The position numbers and the translations under genes were made by a program. A stretch of DNA of 64,000 nucleotides from Teretinema zuelzerae (GTDB lineage: Bacteria > Spirochaetota > Spirochaetia > Treponematales > Treponemataceae), in the NCBI RefSeq assembly GCF_021021555.1, contig NZ_JAINWA010000003.1:434001-498000 (forward strand), read 5' to 3'. Shown here piece after piece: positions 23,054 to 34,747 of the stretch. The stretch's first letter is position 1, and every line of letters begins with the position of its first letter. The notes under the pieces are model-generated. The model was not told where the DNA came from, searched no databases, and worked only from the letters and a program-made list of their open reading frames with translations.

Positions 23054-24460
23054 TCACAGAGGAAGGCGGTTTTTTATCACGAAATCGTTCAAGGCGGCGA
23101 TCTGTTCGCGGACGCGGTCGGGATTCGGGCCGCCGGGAAGATCGCGGGCCTTCACGCAAGAGGCCGGTTCGAGCAAAGGATACACGTCGGGCTCTATGAG
23201 ATCCGAATGAATCTTCATGCGGTCGAGGGGCAGATCGATCATGTCAGGGATTCCGGAATCGATGCACTCGCGGACGACTCCCGCGGCCGCGGCATGAGCT
23301 TTCCGGAACGGCAGGCCTTTGCGCACCAGATAATCTGCAAGATCGGTAGCGTTCGCGTGGCCCCCCGTGCAGGAGGACTCGAGGCGCTCCGTATTCCAGC
23401 GGATCGATGCGACCATGTGGGTGAATATTCTCAGGCAGGAAAAAGCCGTGTCGTACGCGTCGAAAAGATTTTCCTTGTCCTCCTGCATATCCTTGTTGTA
23501 GGAAAGCGGCAGGCCCTTCATCATGGTGAACAGGGCTATCAGATCGCCGTACACCCTGCCCGTCTTGCCGCGGATGACTTCCGCGAAATCGGGATTCTTT
23601 TTTTGAGGCATGATGCTCGAACCGGTGGACCACTTTTCCGAAAGCTCGATGAATTTGAACTCTTCGGTCGACCAGATGATGATCTCTTCGCAGTAGCGGG
23701 AAAGATGGGTCATCAGGATCGCGATGGCGGAGGCAAGCTCGAGGCAGTAGTCCCGGTCCGATACGGCGTCGAGGGAGTTTTCCGTGAGGGCGGAAAAGCC
23801 CAGTTCGTCGGCGACGAGGCGCCTGTCCAAGGGCAACCCGGTGCCGGCGAGAGCGCCCGACCCAAGAGGCATGCGGTCGATGCGCGCGAGAGCGTCGGAG
23901 AAACGGCCGTAGTCGCGCACGAGGGGCCACGACCAGGCGCACAGATGATGGGCGAGCGTCACGGGTTGCGCGCGCTGAAGATGGGTGTAGCCCGTCATCA
24001 GGGTTTCCGTGTGTTTCGAGGCGATGGACGAGAGAGTCTCGACGAGAGAGAGAATTCCGGTTTGAAGCTCGGGCACGATCCTTCTGAGATAGAGCCGTTC
24101 GTCCAGGGCGACCTGGTCGTTCCGGCTGCGGCCGGTGTGCACCTTGCGTCCTGCGTCTCCGAGCCGTTCGGTCAGCACGCCTTCGACGAAGCTGTGAATA
24201 TCCTCGGCCGCCCAGTCGATCTTTAGGGAGCCTGATTCGAGTTCTCCGTATATGGAGCGGAGCTCCTTGACTATGGCCGCCGATTCATCTGCCGGAATTA
24301 TTCCCGCCTTTCCGAGCATGAGGGCATGCGCGATGCTGCCGCGAACATCGTCCAGGGCCATGCGGGAATCGATCCCGATCGATGATTGAAACGCCAGCGC
24401 GTCGGCGTCGGGTCCGTCTGAAAAACGACCATGCCACAGGGGAGATTTTTTTTCGCTCAT
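23054..24460 (-). CDS. argH: Argininosuccinate lyase
   Basis: 468 aa. Splits argininosuccinate into arginine and fumarate, the last step of arginine synthesis. Signature GSSIMPQKKNPDFAEV of the fumarase/aspartase superfamily is present, plus HTGRSRNDQVALDERLYLR and TGYTHLQRAQPVTLAHHL. The start overlaps the flavin-reductase-like stop (ATGA, 24457-24460). It is separated from argG by three non-arginine genes but transcribed the same way. Confidence 0.96.
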   Translation of the reverse strand: MSEKKSPLWHGRFSDGPDADALAFQSSIGIDSRMALDDVRGSIAHALMLGKAGIIPADESAAIVKELRSIYGELESGSLKIDWAAEDIHSFVEGVLTERLGDAGRKVHTGRSRNDQVALDERLYLRRIVPELQTGILSLVETLSSIASKHTETLMTGYTHLQRAQPVTLAHHLCAWSWPLVRDYGRFSDALARIDRMPLGSGALAGTGLPLDRRLVADELGFSALTENSLDAVSDRDYCLELASAIAILMTHLSRYCEEIIIWSTEEFKFIELSEKWSTGSSIMPQKKNPDFAEVIRGKTGRVYGDLIALFTMMKGLPLSYNKDMQEDKENLFDAYDTAFSCLRIFTHMVASIRWNTERLESSCTGGHANATDLADYLVRKGLPFRKAHAAAAGVVRECIDSGIPDMIDLPLDRMKIHSDLIEPDVYPLLEPASCVKARDLPGGPNPDRVREQIAALNDFVIKNRLPL

Positions 24461-25017
24461 TTTGCAGTCCTCGCTTCGTCGTTGCCCGCAGCCGGAGTCC
24501 AGCAGCGGAGAATTTCGCAGATGTACATCCGGTGATAATCCTTCAGTTCGTAAAAGGAATCCAGGCCTTTATCGATAAAACAGGCAGGGCTCATATCCTG
24601 CGCGTAGATTTTACGGCAGACAAGGGAAAACCTCGCCTGGGAAAATCCGACGGCGCCCGGCTCGAGCACAACCGGTTCGATTCCGGCGGCCTCAGCTTTG
24701 TCCGTATCCCGGCCGCTTACGCTCCCGCAGATCTGCAGGGCTTTTTTATGTTCAGGACCGAAAAACGAAAAAGTCAGAAGGGGCTCGCGTTCAGCAAACG
24801 GAAAGGTATGGCGGGTCGGCCTGATGACGCAGGAGACGGTTCTGCGGTTCCAGTGCACCCCGAACCCTCCCCATGACGCGGTCATGGCGTTCCATTCGTT
24901 TCTCGAGGTTCCGGTTCCGGCGCTTATCAGCATCCACTCATGGCCGATTGAGGTAAACGGCTGTACAAGAGATTCCAGCAAAGGGCCGGAGGCGTCGCAG
25001 CTTGCGAATCGAGCCAT
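24457..25017 (-). CDS. Flavin reductase-like FMN-binding split-barrel protein
   Basis: 186 aa. The segment MLISAGTGTSRNEWNAMTASWGGFGVHWNRRTVSCVIRPTRHTFPF follows the pattern of flavin reductase-like domain proteins (strand with N-x-M-T-x-x-W, then the RPTR/T-block that contacts FMN). KKALQICGSVSGRDTDKAEAAGI and PACFIDKGLDSFYELKDYHRMYICEI complete the fold. It likely binds FMN; substrate unknown. It overlaps both neighbours (TGATG with the DUF368 gene, ATGA with argH), so it is tightly coupled inside the arginine cluster without an obvious arginine role. Confidence 0.75.
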   Translation of the reverse strand: MARFASCDASGPLLESLVQPFTSIGHEWMLISAGTGTSRNEWNAMTASWGGFGVHWNRRTVSCVIRPTRHTFPFAEREPLLTFSFFGPEHKKALQICGSVSGRDTDKAEAAGIEPVVLEPGAVGFSQARFSLVCRKIYAQDMSPACFIDKGLDSFYELKDYHRMYICEILRCWTPAAGNDEARTAK

Positions 25018-25844
25018 CAGGAGGCCTCCGGCGAAGCAGATTCGGAACGGCTGAAAAACCAGGAGAGCGCCGTGCCTGCGATCAAAGAGGCCAGGGAAAT
25101 GAGCGTTGAAGCGATTCCGGATGGCAGACCCGGATACACGGGAAGAACGGAACCGGCCACGAGGCCGAGGATCAGCGCGTAAGTCGCTTTCGGGAACCGG
25201 GTCATGAGAAAGCGGACGAGTCCGGCTCCAGCGAGAAGGCCTGCGATAATGCCGAATCCGATGGGAAGCAGCAGGGGAATATTAAAATCGGAGATCGCGG
25301 ATATCACCGTGCGGTAGCCGCCGAGTATCAACAATACAAGGGAACCGGATATTCCGGGAATTATCATCGCGACTGCTCCGACCGCTCCAAGAAAAAAGAG
25401 CCAAAAAAACACCGGAACGGACAGCGACGTAATCGCGGAAACCGACTCATCGGCCTGAACGACGGCCATCACTATCATGACGGCCAACCCCGCGGCGATG
25501 AAAACGGCTGCTCCGGGAGAGAAGGAATCGCCTTTGGCCCGCTTGAAAATAAAGGGGACGCTTCCCAGAATAATGCCGGTAAAAAAGAAAGCGGTAGGCG
25601 TCGGATGGGAGGCGAAAAGCCAATCGACGAGGTTTGCGAACAAAAGCACGCCGGTGGCGAGTCCGGCGGCAAGAAGCAACAGGAAAAGGATATTCTTTTT
25701 AATCCTGGAAAAATCCAGGGAAATGACTTCGAGTATTTTATCGTACACATTGAATACGACGGCCATAGTCCCGCCGGATACTCCGGGAATGACGTTCGCG
25801 ATGCCGAGAATAATCCCGACTAAATACGTTTTCAAGTTATTCAT
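25017..25844 (-). CDS. DUF368 membrane protein (PopT-like undecaprenyl phosphate transporter)
   Basis: 275 aa from ATG 25844 (AGGAG upstream; an earlier in-frame start at 25874 lacks SD). About eight hydrophobic segments. The DUF368 hallmark GIANVIPGVSGGTMAVVFNVYDKI sits near the N-terminus, and a second inverted-repeat copy, AMIIPGISGSLVLLILGGY, lies mid-protein. DUF368 members (PopT) have been shown in other bacteria to recycle undecaprenyl phosphate across the membrane; that role is inferred here. Coupled to the flavin reductase-like gene by TGATG. Confidence 0.85.
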   Translation of the reverse strand: MNNLKTYLVGIILGIANVIPGVSGGTMAVVFNVYDKILEVISLDFSRIKKNILFLLLLAAGLATGVLLFANLVDWLFASHPTPTAFFFTGIILGSVPFIFKRAKGDSFSPGAAVFIAAGLAVMIVMAVVQADESVSAITSLSVPVFFWLFFLGAVGAVAMIIPGISGSLVLLILGGYRTVISAISDFNIPLLLPIGFGIIAGLLAGAGLVRFLMTRFPKATYALILGLVAGSVLPVYPGLPSGIASTLISLASLIAGTALSWFFSRSESASPEAS

Positions 25845-25870
25845 TAAAGCTCCTGTTGCGTAAAAGTCTA

Positions 25871-26737
25871 TCATAAAGGCCGATCCGCGGACAACAGAGA
25901 CGAACAGCCGTCCGGTGAGAGGAGAGAGGAAAGCTCGAGATCCGTTTCAAGAAAGCGGCTGAAAGCGGTCGGCACAGGCTTTCCGACTGCGCCGAGCCAC
26001 CTTTCGAGAAATTCCTTCCTCGGAGTGACGCGGGCTCCCAGGTCCCGCTTGTACTGCATTTGCGGCTGGCCCAGATTCCAAAAGGAAAAACCGGACCGTT
26101 CCAGCAATACCGCAAGCGCGTGGAGCTGGAGCTTTCCGCAGTTGTTCCAGGCTCGTCTGTCAGGATGCATGAAGCCCGAAAGGCTCGTGTAGACGGAGCC
26201 GGTAATATAGCCGAGCTCTCCGGCGACGGGACGATCGCAGCGAGAAGACCAGAGTTCTACGCCGACCGGAATGAGGGGCGGCGAAGGAGAATCGCCGGAA
26301 AACGAATACTCGCGAGTGCGCGAAGCAAGTTGGTTCATAACCTTCCGATATGGCGCGTGGAGCCAGGATTCGCCCTCCCAGCATTCGCCGAGGCACCGCA
26401 TCGCAAGCCCGGGATCGCGGGTAACGCGGAGGGTCAGCGACAGACGATCGCAAATTCCCGAGCGGATTGCGGAGAAAAGGGAGCGGGACAAGCGGCGATC
26501 CCTCCAGTCGAGAACGGCGGACTCGATATGCATCTGAGGAAGCAACAGCATCCTGCCGTCGAAATGATCGGAACAAATCGATATGAACCCCGCTCGAGCA
26601 AGGGAAATGTAAAAATCGGGGTCCCAGTCGTCGGACCAATACCAGGCCTGCGTTTCATTGCCGTAGATGTAGGGAACCAAAAAAACAGGGTTAAGCCATT
26701 CGGGACTTATCGGAAGAATCGTGTTTTCGCTGCTCAT
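25871..26737 (-). CDS. Divergent leucyl/phenylalanyl-tRNA-protein transferase-like (Aat-like) protein
   Basis: 288 aa. The middle and C-terminal region follows the L/F-transferase (GNAT-type) order: SAIRSGICDRLSLTLRVTRDPGLAMRCLGECWEGESWLHAPYRKVM, then IPVGVELWSSRCDRPVAGELGYITGSVYTSLSGF, then LQLHALAVLLERSGFSFWNLGQPQMQYKRDLGARVTPRKEFLERW. These match 'F-x-x-V-I-x-x-C-A', 'W-I-x-x-x-M-x-x-A-Y', 'SVE-x-W', 'L-x-G-G-x-Y-G' and 'D-x-Q-x-x-x-x-x-L-G-A-x-x-x-x-R-x-x-F' of Aat, which adds Leu or Phe to N-terminal basic residues for N-degron degradation. The substitutions are extensive, so specificity may differ. No SD. A hairpin lies between it and argG. Confidence 0.6.
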   Translation of the reverse strand: MSSENTILPISPEWLNPVFLVPYIYGNETQAWYWSDDWDPDFYISLARAGFISICSDHFDGRMLLLPQMHIESAVLDWRDRRLSRSLFSAIRSGICDRLSLTLRVTRDPGLAMRCLGECWEGESWLHAPYRKVMNQLASRTREYSFSGDSPSPPLIPVGVELWSSRCDRPVAGELGYITGSVYTSLSGFMHPDRRAWNNCGKLQLHALAVLLERSGFSFWNLGQPQMQYKRDLGARVTPRKEFLERWLGAVGKPVPTAFSRFLETDLELSSLLSPDGCSSLLSADRPL

Positions 26738-31440: not shown

Positions 31441-32490
31441 TTAAAAAGCGGCGGGAATCGCGTCGATTCCCATTGTTTCCGGGAAACCGGAAATCAGGTT
31501 CATATTCTGCACCGCTTGTCCGGCGGCGCCCTTTACCATGTTGTCGATGGCGGAAACAATCTCGACGGTGTTTCCCCCGTTCACCACATGGATCGAAAGA
31601 TCGCACCAGTTGGAAAGCCGCACGTTTTTAGTCGTAGCGGTGTCTCCGAGGGGAAGCACCCGGACGAAAGGCTCTTCGGCGTAGCGCTCCGCAAAAATGG
31701 CGAACACCTCTTCTTCAGTCACCGGCCGGACCGTCTGAGCGTATACGGTCGCTATGATGCCGCGGCTCATCGGCAAAAGATGCGGAGTGAAAAGGACGTT
31801 CACGGGCTTCCCCGCAGCCTTCGAGCAGTTCCTCGCGATCTCGGGCTGATGCCGGTGCTTGCCCACATTGTACGGAGCAAAGGACTCTCCCGATTCGGAA
31901 TAGTTGTTCTTCTCGCTCGGATTCCGGCCAGTTCCGGTAATTCCGCTTTTCGCGTCGACGATTACGCAGTCCGTTTTCGCCAAACCCTTTTCCAGCAGGG
32001 GAAGAAGGGCAAGGGTCGCCGCGGTCACATAGCAGCCGGGATTCCCGATCACCCTGGCCTTGCGAATTTTCTCCCGATTCATTTCCGGAAGCCCGTAGAC
32101 CGACTCGCTGTGCATCGCGGGAAATGCGTACGGTTTTTTATACCATTCCACGAAGGTCGCCTCATCCTCGTCGAACCGGAAATCAGCCGAAAGATCGATC
32201 AGCTTTTTCCCCTGTTTTACGCAGGCGTCCGCGTACTGCTCGGCGACTCCGTGCGGAAGAGCGGTGAACACCACGTCTGCGGCGGCGACAACCGCGTCGG
32301 CGCCGGTGAGCACGCCGTCGGTTTTCCCCCGGAGCATTCCGCGCAGGTTCGGATACACGTCGACGATGTTCTGCCCCTCGAAACTGACGGAGCTGAGGGC
32401 CAGGGAAGAAACTTCAGGGTGCGCCAAAAGGAGGCGGACCAATTCGACGCCGACATATCCTGTCGCGCCGATAATACCGGCAACAATCAT
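31441..32490 (-). CDS. argC: N-acetyl-gamma-glutamyl-phosphate reductase
   Basis: 349 aa. Rossmann start VAGIIGATGYVGVELVRLLLAHPE and the active-site Cys in VIGNPGCYVTA; KSGITGTGRNPSEKNNYSE and the HRHQPEI block match ArgC. First structural gene of the argC-J-B-D-G cluster. SD GGAG precedes ATG 32490. Transcribed from an upstream promoter through an Arg-rich leader peptide and a hairpin region. Confidence 0.95.
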   Translation of the reverse strand: MIVAGIIGATGYVGVELVRLLLAHPEVSSLALSSVSFEGQNIVDVYPNLRGMLRGKTDGVLTGADAVVAAADVVFTALPHGVAEQYADACVKQGKKLIDLSADFRFDEDEATFVEWYKKPYAFPAMHSESVYGLPEMNREKIRKARVIGNPGCYVTAATLALLPLLEKGLAKTDCVIVDAKSGITGTGRNPSEKNNYSESGESFAPYNVGKHRHQPEIARNCSKAAGKPVNVLFTPHLLPMSRGIIATVYAQTVRPVTEEEVFAIFAERYAEEPFVRVLPLGDTATTKNVRLSNWCDLSIHVVNGGNTVEIVSAIDNMVKGAAGQAVQNMNLISGFPETMGIDAIPAAF

Positions 32491-32506
32491 ATGCTACTCC
32501 AATTCA

Positions 32507-32592
32507 AATAATGTATTGTGTTAGGAAAATAAAACCGGAAAGGCCTCGAACGAGGCTGACCCTGACCGGACAGGGGCGATGGAAGAAGTTCT
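32507..32592 (-). promoter_or_regulatory. Candidate attenuator hairpins between leader peptide and argC
   Basis: Reading the minus strand after the leader stop, two competing structures are visible. One is CCCTG/CAGGG enclosing TCCGGT. The other is a longer hairpin whose outer CCGG arms flank an inner GCCTC-GTTC-GAGGC stem and which is directly followed by TTTTATTTT. The 5' CCGG arm of the second lies in the loop of the first, so they cannot both form. The argC SD follows. Confidence 0.55.
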
Positions 32593-32679
32593 TTACGCCT
32601 GACGGCGACGGAGGGCGCGGAAAAGATGGAAACCGGATAGACACAGTGCGGAAAACGTTTCGCAGCATTGATCAGTCAT
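32593..32679 (-). CDS. Arginine-rich leader peptide upstream of argC (28 aa)
   Basis: ATG 32679 to TAA 32593, preceded by a perfect AAGGAG SD with 7-nt spacing. It encodes 28 residues, with Arg at positions 21, 24, 25 and 26, so the peptide ends FRALRRRQA. The arginine codons (CGC, CGT, CGC, CGT) sit just before the stop and 102 nt before the argC start, with hairpins between. This is the layout of ribosome-mediated attenuation leaders such as those for his, trp or leu, here specific for arginine. Too short for most gene finders. Confidence 0.65.
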   Translation of the reverse strand: MTDQCCETFSALCLSGFHLFRALRRRQA

Positions 32680-32714
32680 TTCTCTTCTCCTTACCAAGGA
32701 TGAACTTTAGCAAA

Positions 32715-32744
32715 AGTGTAACTACTTTAGCTGCCGATGGTCAA
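32715..32744 (-). promoter_or_regulatory. Promoter of the arginine operon leader
   Basis: -35 TTGACC (32739-32744), 18 bp spacer, -10 TACACT (32715-32720) on the minus strand. The predicted start near 32708 leaves about 28 nt before the leader peptide ATG. Confidence 0.55.
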
Positions 32745-32815: not shown

Positions 32816-34747
32816 TCAATCTTCCTTAAACAACCCTTCAATTACCTCGCCGTACAGTTCAGCCATAACATGGCGCTTGATCTCCTGTTTGGCGGAAAGC
32901 TCTTTCCCGAGTTCGAACGTTCTATCGAGAAGGGCGAAGCGTCCGATCCGCTCGAAGGGCCTGAATCCGTTTCGAGCGTTGATTCTGAGCGAGATTTCCT
33001 CGTTGATGAGCTCCCTGACCTCGGGCATCGCGGCAAGAGTGTCGCGGGCTATGTAGGGCACGGCGTTCGCTTTCAAATACTGCTCGACCGCCTTCGTATC
33101 GATCTGTATAAGGGCGCCGAGGAACTTTTTATCCTGTCCGACCACCATCGCGTGTTCGATGAATTCGCTTTCCCTGAGCTTCGCCTCGATGGGAACCGGC
33201 TCCACGTTTTCTCCGCCCATCAGCACGATGGTATCCTTGGCGCGTCCGCGGATCGCGAAATTGCCGTCATGCGTCCACACGCCGAGGTCTCCGGTATTGA
33301 ACCAGCCGTCCGCGTCCAGAACCTTCGCGGTAGCTTCGGGATTCCGGTAGTAGCCCTTCATCACCTGCTTTCCCCGGGCGAGAATCAAACCGCGCACGCC
33401 CGGCGGGCAGTCCCTGCCTGAGTCGTCTACGATGCGTATCTCGGTTCCCGGAAGGGGCGCGAGGGTCAGGCGCACCGGGCGGAAAAAGTTGCGGATCGCG
33501 ATGACCGGCGCCGTCTCAGTCAAACCGTAGCCGTTCAGCAGCGTGATGCCCGCCGCCGCGAAAAACTCGTCTATATCTGCAGGAAGGCTTCCGCCTCCTG
33601 AAATGCCCGCCTTGAACCTGCCGCCGAGCTTCGCCTTCACCTTCGAAAATACCAGGGCGTCTCCCAGCTTTTTCAACGGCCACAGAACTATCAGCGGCAC
33701 AATGGAAAGAAGCCGATCGAGAACGGCCGAACGTTTTTCGAATTGCGGCATGAGGCCCTTGTTCATGGCAGTCAAACGCGCATAAAAAGAACCGAAAGCG
33801 ACGAAGAAGAGGAAAATCGCAGCCTTCGCTCCGCCGTGCTCCGTCGCGTTTTTATACACTCCCGCCTTGATCGCTTCCCAGATTCGGGGAACAGAGGCCA
33901 TCCAGGTCGGCCGAACGAGCGCGAAATCGTGCAGCATGATCTTGCCGATAGGCTTCGAGTACGCGAGCGTGCTTGCCGAAATGAGCGCGATATACTGGAC
34001 GATGCGTTCAAAAACGTGCCACACCGGCAGAACCGAAAGGAAAATGTCGCCGGGACGGATATCGATCACCTGTGGAATAGCCTCGAGCTGGTGGCAGAAG
34101 TTCTGATGCGTCAGAGGAACTCCCTTGGGTTCTCCCGTAGTTCCCGACGTGAAAATAACAGTGGCTACATCGTCGGGTTCGACCTGCGAAAGGGATCGCT
34201 CCCAGAAGTCCTTATCCTCCGAACGATAGCTGACGCCCCTGTCGAGGATCGAGCGGTAACTCAGAATTTCTGTTTTTCGGCCTGGGGTTGCCCCGTCCGG
34301 CAGGGCGGACTGCGGATCGAGAACTATGACCCGCTCAAGCAGCGGAAGCGACTCGAGTATTCCAAGAACTTTCTCGGCCTGCTCGAGATTCTCCGCAAGC
34401 ACCGTTTTGCATTCTGCCCTTGAAAGTATGTACGACAATTCTATGGGAAGGGTATCGCGGCCTCTGGGCACATCGGCGGCGCGCAATCCCAACACTGCCA
34501 AATCGGCGACCAGCCATTCGCGACGGTTGTCGGAAACGAGACCGACGCGGTCCCCCGCCCCGATGCCCAGGGTATGAAGCCCCGCGGCGAAATCTCCCGC
34601 TTCCCCGTAGAGATCAAGGAAGGTGCTGGGCTTATACTGGCCCCAGGCATTCTTGGAAAGCTGGGCAATACCGTCGGGATGCTTCTCTGCTGTCTGTTTC
34701 AGAACCGCGGCGATTGTGCCGGGGCTGGACAATGTTTCGTTGTGCAT
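32816..34747 (-). CDS. Long-chain acyl-CoA synthetase (AMP-binding)
   Basis: 643 aa adenylate-forming enzyme of the FadD/ACSL type. TVIFTSGTTGEPKGVPLTH is the AMP-binding signature, followed by GGGSLPADIDEFFAAAGITLLNGYGLTETAP, WFNTGDLGVWTHDGNFAIRGRAKDTIVLMGGENVEPVPIE and the C-terminal lysine region. It activates fatty acids to acyl-CoA through acyl-AMP. A hydrophobic stretch (LLSIVPLIVLWPLKKLG) may associate with the membrane, as in ACSL enzymes. No SD; a good promoter ends 6 nt before ATG 34747. Confidence 0.92.
   Translation of the reverse strand: MHNETLSSPGTIAAVLKQTAEKHPDGIAQLSKNAWGQYKPSTFLDLYGEAGDFAAGLHTLGIGAGDRVGLVSDNRREWLVADLAVLGLRAADVPRGRDTLPIELSYILSRAECKTVLAENLEQAEKVLGILESLPLLERVIVLDPQSALPDGATPGRKTEILSYRSILDRGVSYRSEDKDFWERSLSQVEPDDVATVIFTSGTTGEPKGVPLTHQNFCHQLEAIPQVIDIRPGDIFLSVLPVWHVFERIVQYIALISASTLAYSKPIGKIMLHDFALVRPTWMASVPRIWEAIKAGVYKNATEHGGAKAAIFLFFVAFGSFYARLTAMNKGLMPQFEKRSAVLDRLLSIVPLIVLWPLKKLGDALVFSKVKAKLGGRFKAGISGGGSLPADIDEFFAAAGITLLNGYGLTETAPVIAIRNFFRPVRLTLAPLPGTEIRIVDDSGRDCPPGVRGLILARGKQVMKGYYRNPEATAKVLDADGWFNTGDLGVWTHDGNFAIRGRAKDTIVLMGGENVEPVPIEAKLRESEFIEHAMVVGQDKKFLGALIQIDTKAVEQYLKANAVPYIARDTLAAMPEVRELINEEISLRINARNGFRPFERIGRFALLDRTFELGKELSAKQEIKRHVMAELYGEVIEGLFKED

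Follow-up and report, generated by a model that had tools for sequence, protein, structure and literature searches.

Layout of the argC upstream region

The window analysed, a 64,000-nt stretch of the Teretinema zuelzerae genome, carries on its minus strand an arginine biosynthesis operon in which argC (31441–32490) is the first gene, followed by argJ, argB, argD and argG. The argH gene is located further down on the same strand (23054–24460). The interval between argG and argH (24457–26737, minus strand) contains genes for a VCA0040-like undecaprenyl-phosphate translocase and a flavin reductase, together with an ORF of 288 aa that matches no Pfam family and by eye resembles a divergent Leu/Phe-tRNA-protein transferase; the arg operon may run through these genes as far as argH. 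The upstream neighbour of the leader region is an AMP-binding (acyl-CoA synthetase-like) gene, the end of which is at 32816.

All features described below are on the minus strand. Transcription is predicted to start from a sigma-70-type promoter, TTGACC-18-TACACT (32715–32744), which is followed by a Shine–Dalgarno (SD) sequence, AAGGAG (32692–32687), and, after a spacing of 7 nt, by a leader ORF of 28 codons (32679–32593), MTDQCCETFSALCLSGFHLFRALRRRQA, with an ATG at 32679 and a TAA at 32595–32593. Its final eight sense codons are CGC GCC CTC CGT CGC CGT CAG GCG, four of which encode Arg. Three form an uninterrupted run (CGT CGC CGT, 32610–32602), the proposed stall site, and the fourth, CGC, occupies 32619–32617. 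The start of argC, at 32490, is 102 nt past the leader stop codon. The original prediction had described this ORF with its SD, the four Arg codons, the promoter and the distance to argC, and all of its coordinates were confirmed. Thus, as in codon-counting leaders, a short ORF with its own initiation signals lies between the promoter and the first gene of the operon.

Arginine operons are textbook targets of ArgR. A putative ArgR-binding palindrome, TGCATATTTTTGCA (32767–32754), is located directly upstream of the −35 element and is the sole site in the 64 kb within one mismatch of TGCATWWWWWTGCA; similar ATGCA/TGCAT boxes are found upstream of argC in congeners. Since ArgR is encoded in this genome and the ArgR-box-like palindrome adjoins the −35 element, the leader would work beside ArgR and not instead of it. 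The original account, which named ArgR only as the usual regulator of arginine operons, was incomplete in this respect, both argR and the box being present.

Conservation of the leader within the genus

The congeneric set comprised seven genomes with an argC locus, including that of the window; the other six are 72–80% identical to it in ArgC. The leader ORF is present at 7/7 of these loci, and it recurs in other families. In every congener it is preceded by a strong SD and by a promoter of the form TTGACC, 17–18 nt and TA(N)3T in the same place. The peptides end in LRRR, LRRRQA or LRRRRA and their N-terminal parts are unrelated between species, a free divergence of the kind found in codon-counting leaders. 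At locus L016 (G028), argC is split between two adjacent frames (query matches 1–252 and 252–349), owing to a frameshift or a sequencing error.

The nucleotides CTCCGTCGCCGTNNGGCGTA are also invariant in the genus; each genome contains a single exact copy of the motif, at argC. The window's own genome has no second copy within two mismatches. Distant genomes match no more often than chance predicts, and none of the ORFs at the best such match (L036) is an arg gene.

Arg-ending leaders across Spirochaetota

Arg-ending leaders precede argC in several other families, the names of which were inferred, in part from a few named contigs. They were found at 21/23 loci of a Rectinema-like family (f3) that includes Rectinema subterraneum, at loci of f2 and some of f5 (termite-gut treponemes) and at 17/20 loci of f30, a family with AT-rich genomes that we take to be Brachyspira-like; the f5 and f30 leaders were chosen by eye from computed lists, and some have no strong SD. 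Most termite treponemes have no Arg-ending leader. In a number of termite-treponeme loci (L147, L149, L164, L204 and L206) the leader ATG is close downstream of the −10 region and no SD precedes it, and the regulatory peptide is apparently encoded by leaderless mRNAs. Three Brachyspira-like species of f30 (L223, L225 and L230) have a short ORF in the same place without the Arg-Arg ending, an apparent case of sensor decay.

Negative controls were loci of other Treponemataceae genera, f13-, f20- and f52-type loci and Clostridia loci fetched by similarity. An SD-preceded Arg-ending ORF was found at 0/29 argC loci of the other Treponemataceae genera, and no Arg-ending leader in the sampled f13, f20, f52-type and Clostridia loci. 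Within the window's own genome, no leaders were seen before argF, argH or leuA.

In 31/85 spirochaete upstream regions there is an ORF that follows an SD and has two or more Arg among its last four codons, compared with 2.5% of dinucleotide shuffles; three Arg in the last four codons occur in 17/85 regions and in 0.2% of shuffles. The frequency of Arg at codons −1, −2 and −3 from the stop is 0.79, 0.83 and 0.42, and 0.08 in the remaining peptide, values that are partly circular because the leaders were gathered by their Arg-ending ORFs, which does not apply to the shuffle test or to the base-composition test described below. The last six positions of the leaders contain 84 CGT, 26 CGC, 20 AGG, four CGA, three AGA and one CGG. 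This use of six different Arg codons indicates that it is the amino acid that is conserved and not the nucleotides alone; a cluster of codons for the end product is thus kept through synonymous change. In eight genes of the window, 6% of the Arg codons are CGT, the codon that predominates in the leaders.

These comparisons bear on the claim that an Arg-codon leader precedes the arg operon. Relatives retain both the ORF and its Arg codons, which shows that the arrangement is no accident; the leader ORF is real. A peptide that senses Arg-tRNA is, with high confidence, the best description of it. Two other explanations of the conservation can be weighed against the same data. The first is that of a conserved RNA or DNA element, such as a protein site or a hairpin, in which the ORF is incidental; it would account for the invariance of CTCCGTCGCCGTNNGGCGTA in the genus and for a 17-mer of f30, TCAAGGCGTTAAGCCTC, that likewise occurs once per genome, in 17/29 genomes of the family. 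Across families, however, the nucleotides differ, whereas the Arg codons, start signals and stop are retained. Moreover, an Rfam search of the window and its relatives returned only a tRNA and a meaningless miRNA match, so that no curated covariance model for a T-box or another RNA matches the leader. Such an element is very improbable.

The second explanation is a nascent-peptide sensor of the TnaC or fungal arginine attenuator peptide type, in which free arginine would cause the peptide to stall the ribosome. The short peptide, with a genus-conserved C-terminal LRRR and an adjoining stop codon, is compatible with this. Tunnel-sensing peptides, however, require conserved upstream residues, and those before the Arg codons are not conserved; L004 has a stop in place of QA, and the core common to all families is only Arg(-Arg). 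A sensor of this type is therefore hardly to be expected here.

RNA structures between the leader and argC

Two hairpins are predicted 3′ of the leader ORF, P2 (CCCUG-UCCGGU-CAGGG, 32575–32560) and GCCUC-GUUC-GAGGC (32556–32543). An extended, imperfect hairpin (32569–32535) is mutually exclusive with P2 and is followed by UUUUAUUUU, the whole terminator-like element spanning 32569–32526. The original prediction had proposed that these structures form a classical attenuator, in which ribosome stalling chooses between hairpins, one of them being an intrinsic terminator. The inverted repeats do exist, and the extended hairpin with its U-rich tail offers such a terminator in the window. A simple terminator scan, however, reported none in the leader–argC interval, and 51/53 leader loci, that of the window among them, have no hairpin followed by a U-tract between leader and argC; the rule applied does recover the trp attenuator of E. 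coli, as well as very strong terminators in other parts of the window. With internal loops permitted, the window has one terminator candidate, the 32569–32535 hairpin, at −13.1 kcal/mol; its rivals, P2 and the GCCUC/GAGGC hairpin, together reach −16.1 kcal/mol and are 3 kcal/mol more stable. The leader RNA as a whole folds only marginally better than its own shuffles (z −1.29).

Alignment of argC leaders points the same way. The ORF and Arg codons are kept, but the GCCUC/GAGGC hairpin and the terminator are not: no congener has a U-tract at the position of the window's candidate, which is absent from relatives. The distances are also unfavourable. The arms of the competing hairpins begin at least 18 nt past the leader stop codon, and the 5′ arm of the terminator candidate begins more than 20 nt past it, so that, given the established 3′ reach of the ribosome, this arm is beyond a ribosome at the Arg codons or at the stop codon. 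An antiterminator dependent on the position of the stalled ribosome is thus missing, as is a GC-rich hairpin directly before a U-tract that is kept in relatives; what remains is one imperfect, unconserved and out-competed candidate, and the 32569–32535 hairpin with UUUUAUUUU is probably not the operative switch. Stalling-dependent attenuation through an intrinsic terminator is not supported by these computations as an account of the arg leader and deserves little credence.

In favour of the classical reading, this type of attenuation does seem to be at work in the same cell. Upstream of hisG (L290, G000:C3 near 1578870) the genome encodes a His leader peptide of textbook form, MSTVAMLNHHHHLHAEDIPG, with its stop codon 165 nt before the hisG match; a hairpin of −29.5 kcal/mol and T6 come next, and the his operon appears to be under classical attenuation. 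The his leader has a strong terminator and the arg leader has none, which means that the arg leader is built differently.

Other structures are conserved in the genus. P1, a mini-hairpin (CGCC-GUCA-GGCG, 32607–32596) found by RNAalifold in the seven congeners, spans Arg codons and finishes at the stop codon; since the stem is invariant, it has no support from covariation. A CGCC directly 5′ of P2 (32578–32575), kept in 7/7 congeners, could pair with the GGCG of P1 in a putative alternative helix. Most congeners have CCGUU...AACGG at the site of P2, both sides of the stem changing together. Differing forms of a small GC hairpin recur at the stop codon: P1 in the genus, AGGC-GUUAA-GCCU in f30 and, after the stop, GGCG-NNGAC-CGCC in part of f3. 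In f30, the leader stop codon is located in the loop of this conserved hairpin (L116, L118, L217–L222, L224, L226–L229 and L231–L233).

The genus-wide conservation of P1, the alternative GGCG:CGCC helix and P2 would suit control of translation or mRNA stability, in which the position of the leader ribosome refolds the RNA and thereby masks or exposes either the ribosome-binding site of argC or a site for an RNase, in the manner of Salmonella speF. The minimum free energy fold of the window also pairs the argC SD with upstream sequence, and stalling raises SD accessibility in three termite-treponeme loci. These folding and accessibility estimates are thermodynamic only, and within them stalling makes no difference to the mean accessibility of the argC SD in the genus, in f3 or in f30; an SD-sequestration switch was rejected, as stalling has no consistent effect on accessibility in silico. 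The structures, furthermore, vary between families, whereas the Arg codons and a biased base composition persist. Control at this level is unlikely.

A C-rich, G-poor stretch at the end of the leader ORF

The persistent compositional feature is a zone rich in C and poor in G (a C>G bubble) that covers the 3′ half of the leader ORF and the first ~20 nt past its stop codon. The best 80 nt of the window (32652–32573), which include the ORF end and the stop codon, have an excess of C over G of 17 and fall within the top 0.4% of the 80-nt windows on both strands of the 64 kb. Of 26 leader-positive loci, 21 have a bubble in the top 1% of their own locus and 16 have one in the top 0.1%, whereas 0/31 leader-negative spirochaete loci and 0/30 Clostridia loci reach the top 0.1% (Mann–Whitney P about 3e-9 and 2e-10, respectively). 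The his leader has no such bubble. At four-fold degenerate third positions of leader codons, the G fraction falls from 0.38 to 0.16 in the genus and from 0.35 to 0.15 in f3, and this synonymous avoidance of G means that the bias is imposed on the RNA and not by the peptide.

Rho-utilisation sites are characterised by unstructured RNA that is C-rich and G-poor, and rho is encoded in this genome. The conserved bubble with its synonymous avoidance of G suggests a rut-like signature, and the stretch at 32652–32573, upstream of the presumed termination zone, is a candidate rut region. The bubble is no proof of a rut site and could serve solely to prevent structure in the leader. The case for Rho is weaker in f30, whose AT-rich genomes have a stretch that is poor in G (7% G, 15% C) but not rich in C. 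Overall, we regard Rho as the likely terminating agent.

Proposed mechanism

From the features described we infer translation, stalling, the action of Rho and the direction of the response, as follows. The leader ORF would be translated, and, when charged tRNA-Arg is scarce, the ribosome would stall at the Arg codons beside the stop. The stalled ribosome would cover a Rho-utilisation site lying across the last part of the ORF and the ~20 nt beyond it; with the rut site shielded, RNA polymerase would reach argC. When arginine is plentiful, the ribosome would finish and depart, leaving the stretch bare, and Rho would end transcription ahead of argC or in its early part. A second, repressor layer would come from ArgR at the promoter. 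The arg leader is thus probably a ribosome-mediated arginine sensor that shields a Rho site in the 5′ leader of argCJBDG. P1 and P2, the conserved hairpins of the genus, are not needed by this Rho-shielding model.

Comparison with known systems

The arg leader has the sequence features tested for codon-counting leader peptides but lacks the defining property of a classical intrinsic-terminator attenuator. With the his, trp and leu attenuators it shares a codon-counting peptide for the end product of the operon; these use an intrinsic terminator, as does the his leader of this genome, and the arg leader is without one. In E. coli tna, a ribosome held at the end of the leader ORF shields an adjacent rut site, as is well established. 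A stop-proximal Arg stall site inside a C>G stretch has, by analogy, the geometry of tna with the stall signal swapped for Arg codons; the TnaC stall differs in arising from free tryptophan with the nascent chain, and the operon that is induced is catabolic (tna is cited in PMC1262725).

Nearest in design are the Cys leaders of actinobacterial cys operons, for which Rho was suggested (PMC1262725). They share a run of codons for the regulated amino acid near the stop and the lack of a conserved terminator; they differ in concerning cysteine and actinobacteria, and their pyrimidine motifs are unconserved, whereas the arg leaders have a strong signature in common, the C>G bubble. No conserved RNA element was found at actinobacterial arginine operons (PMC1262725).

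The nearest described Arg-codon leaders are orf34 of Salmonella speF (SpeFL in E. coli; PMC6386406) and rbfL of S. aureus (PMC13009471), neither of which governs arginine synthesis. In orf34, an upstream ORF with consecutive Arg codons senses arginine, an Arg codon is beside the stop and termination in the leader is Rho-dependent. However, orf34 governs ornithine decarboxylase, its important Arg pair is internal to a conserved peptide domain, its translation opposes Rho while arginine works via RNase G and folding, and it is a gamma-proteobacterial sequence unrelated to the arg leader (PMC6386406). The core of that domain (DUF2618), HIRRT*HIMM (PMC6386406), is absent by inspection from all the leader peptides listed. 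The rbfL upstream ORF, with an Arg-codon end (MVLKYRKR), senses arginine limitation via stalling, but the paused ribosome blocks the downstream ribosome-binding site of a biofilm regulator, so that control is translational and of opposite sign (PMC13009471).

A structured-RNA and upstream-ORF survey that includes Spirochaetes does not mention argC, and the literature searched, outside which most subscription papers fell, describes no Arg leader at argC. To our knowledge, no codon-counting leader for arginine operons has been described in any bacterium.

Significance

On balance, we lean slightly towards the view that an arginine-specific leader controls arginine biosynthesis via Rho-site shielding across no fewer than four or five Spirochaetota families, that of Brachyspira among them, beside ArgR and a classical his attenuator in the same cell. 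The leader offers a testable amino-acid sensor in spirochaetes, a group in which control by RNA has received little study. With a his and an arg leader in one genome, intrinsic-terminator and putative Rho-type attenuation also lend themselves naturally to comparison side by side.
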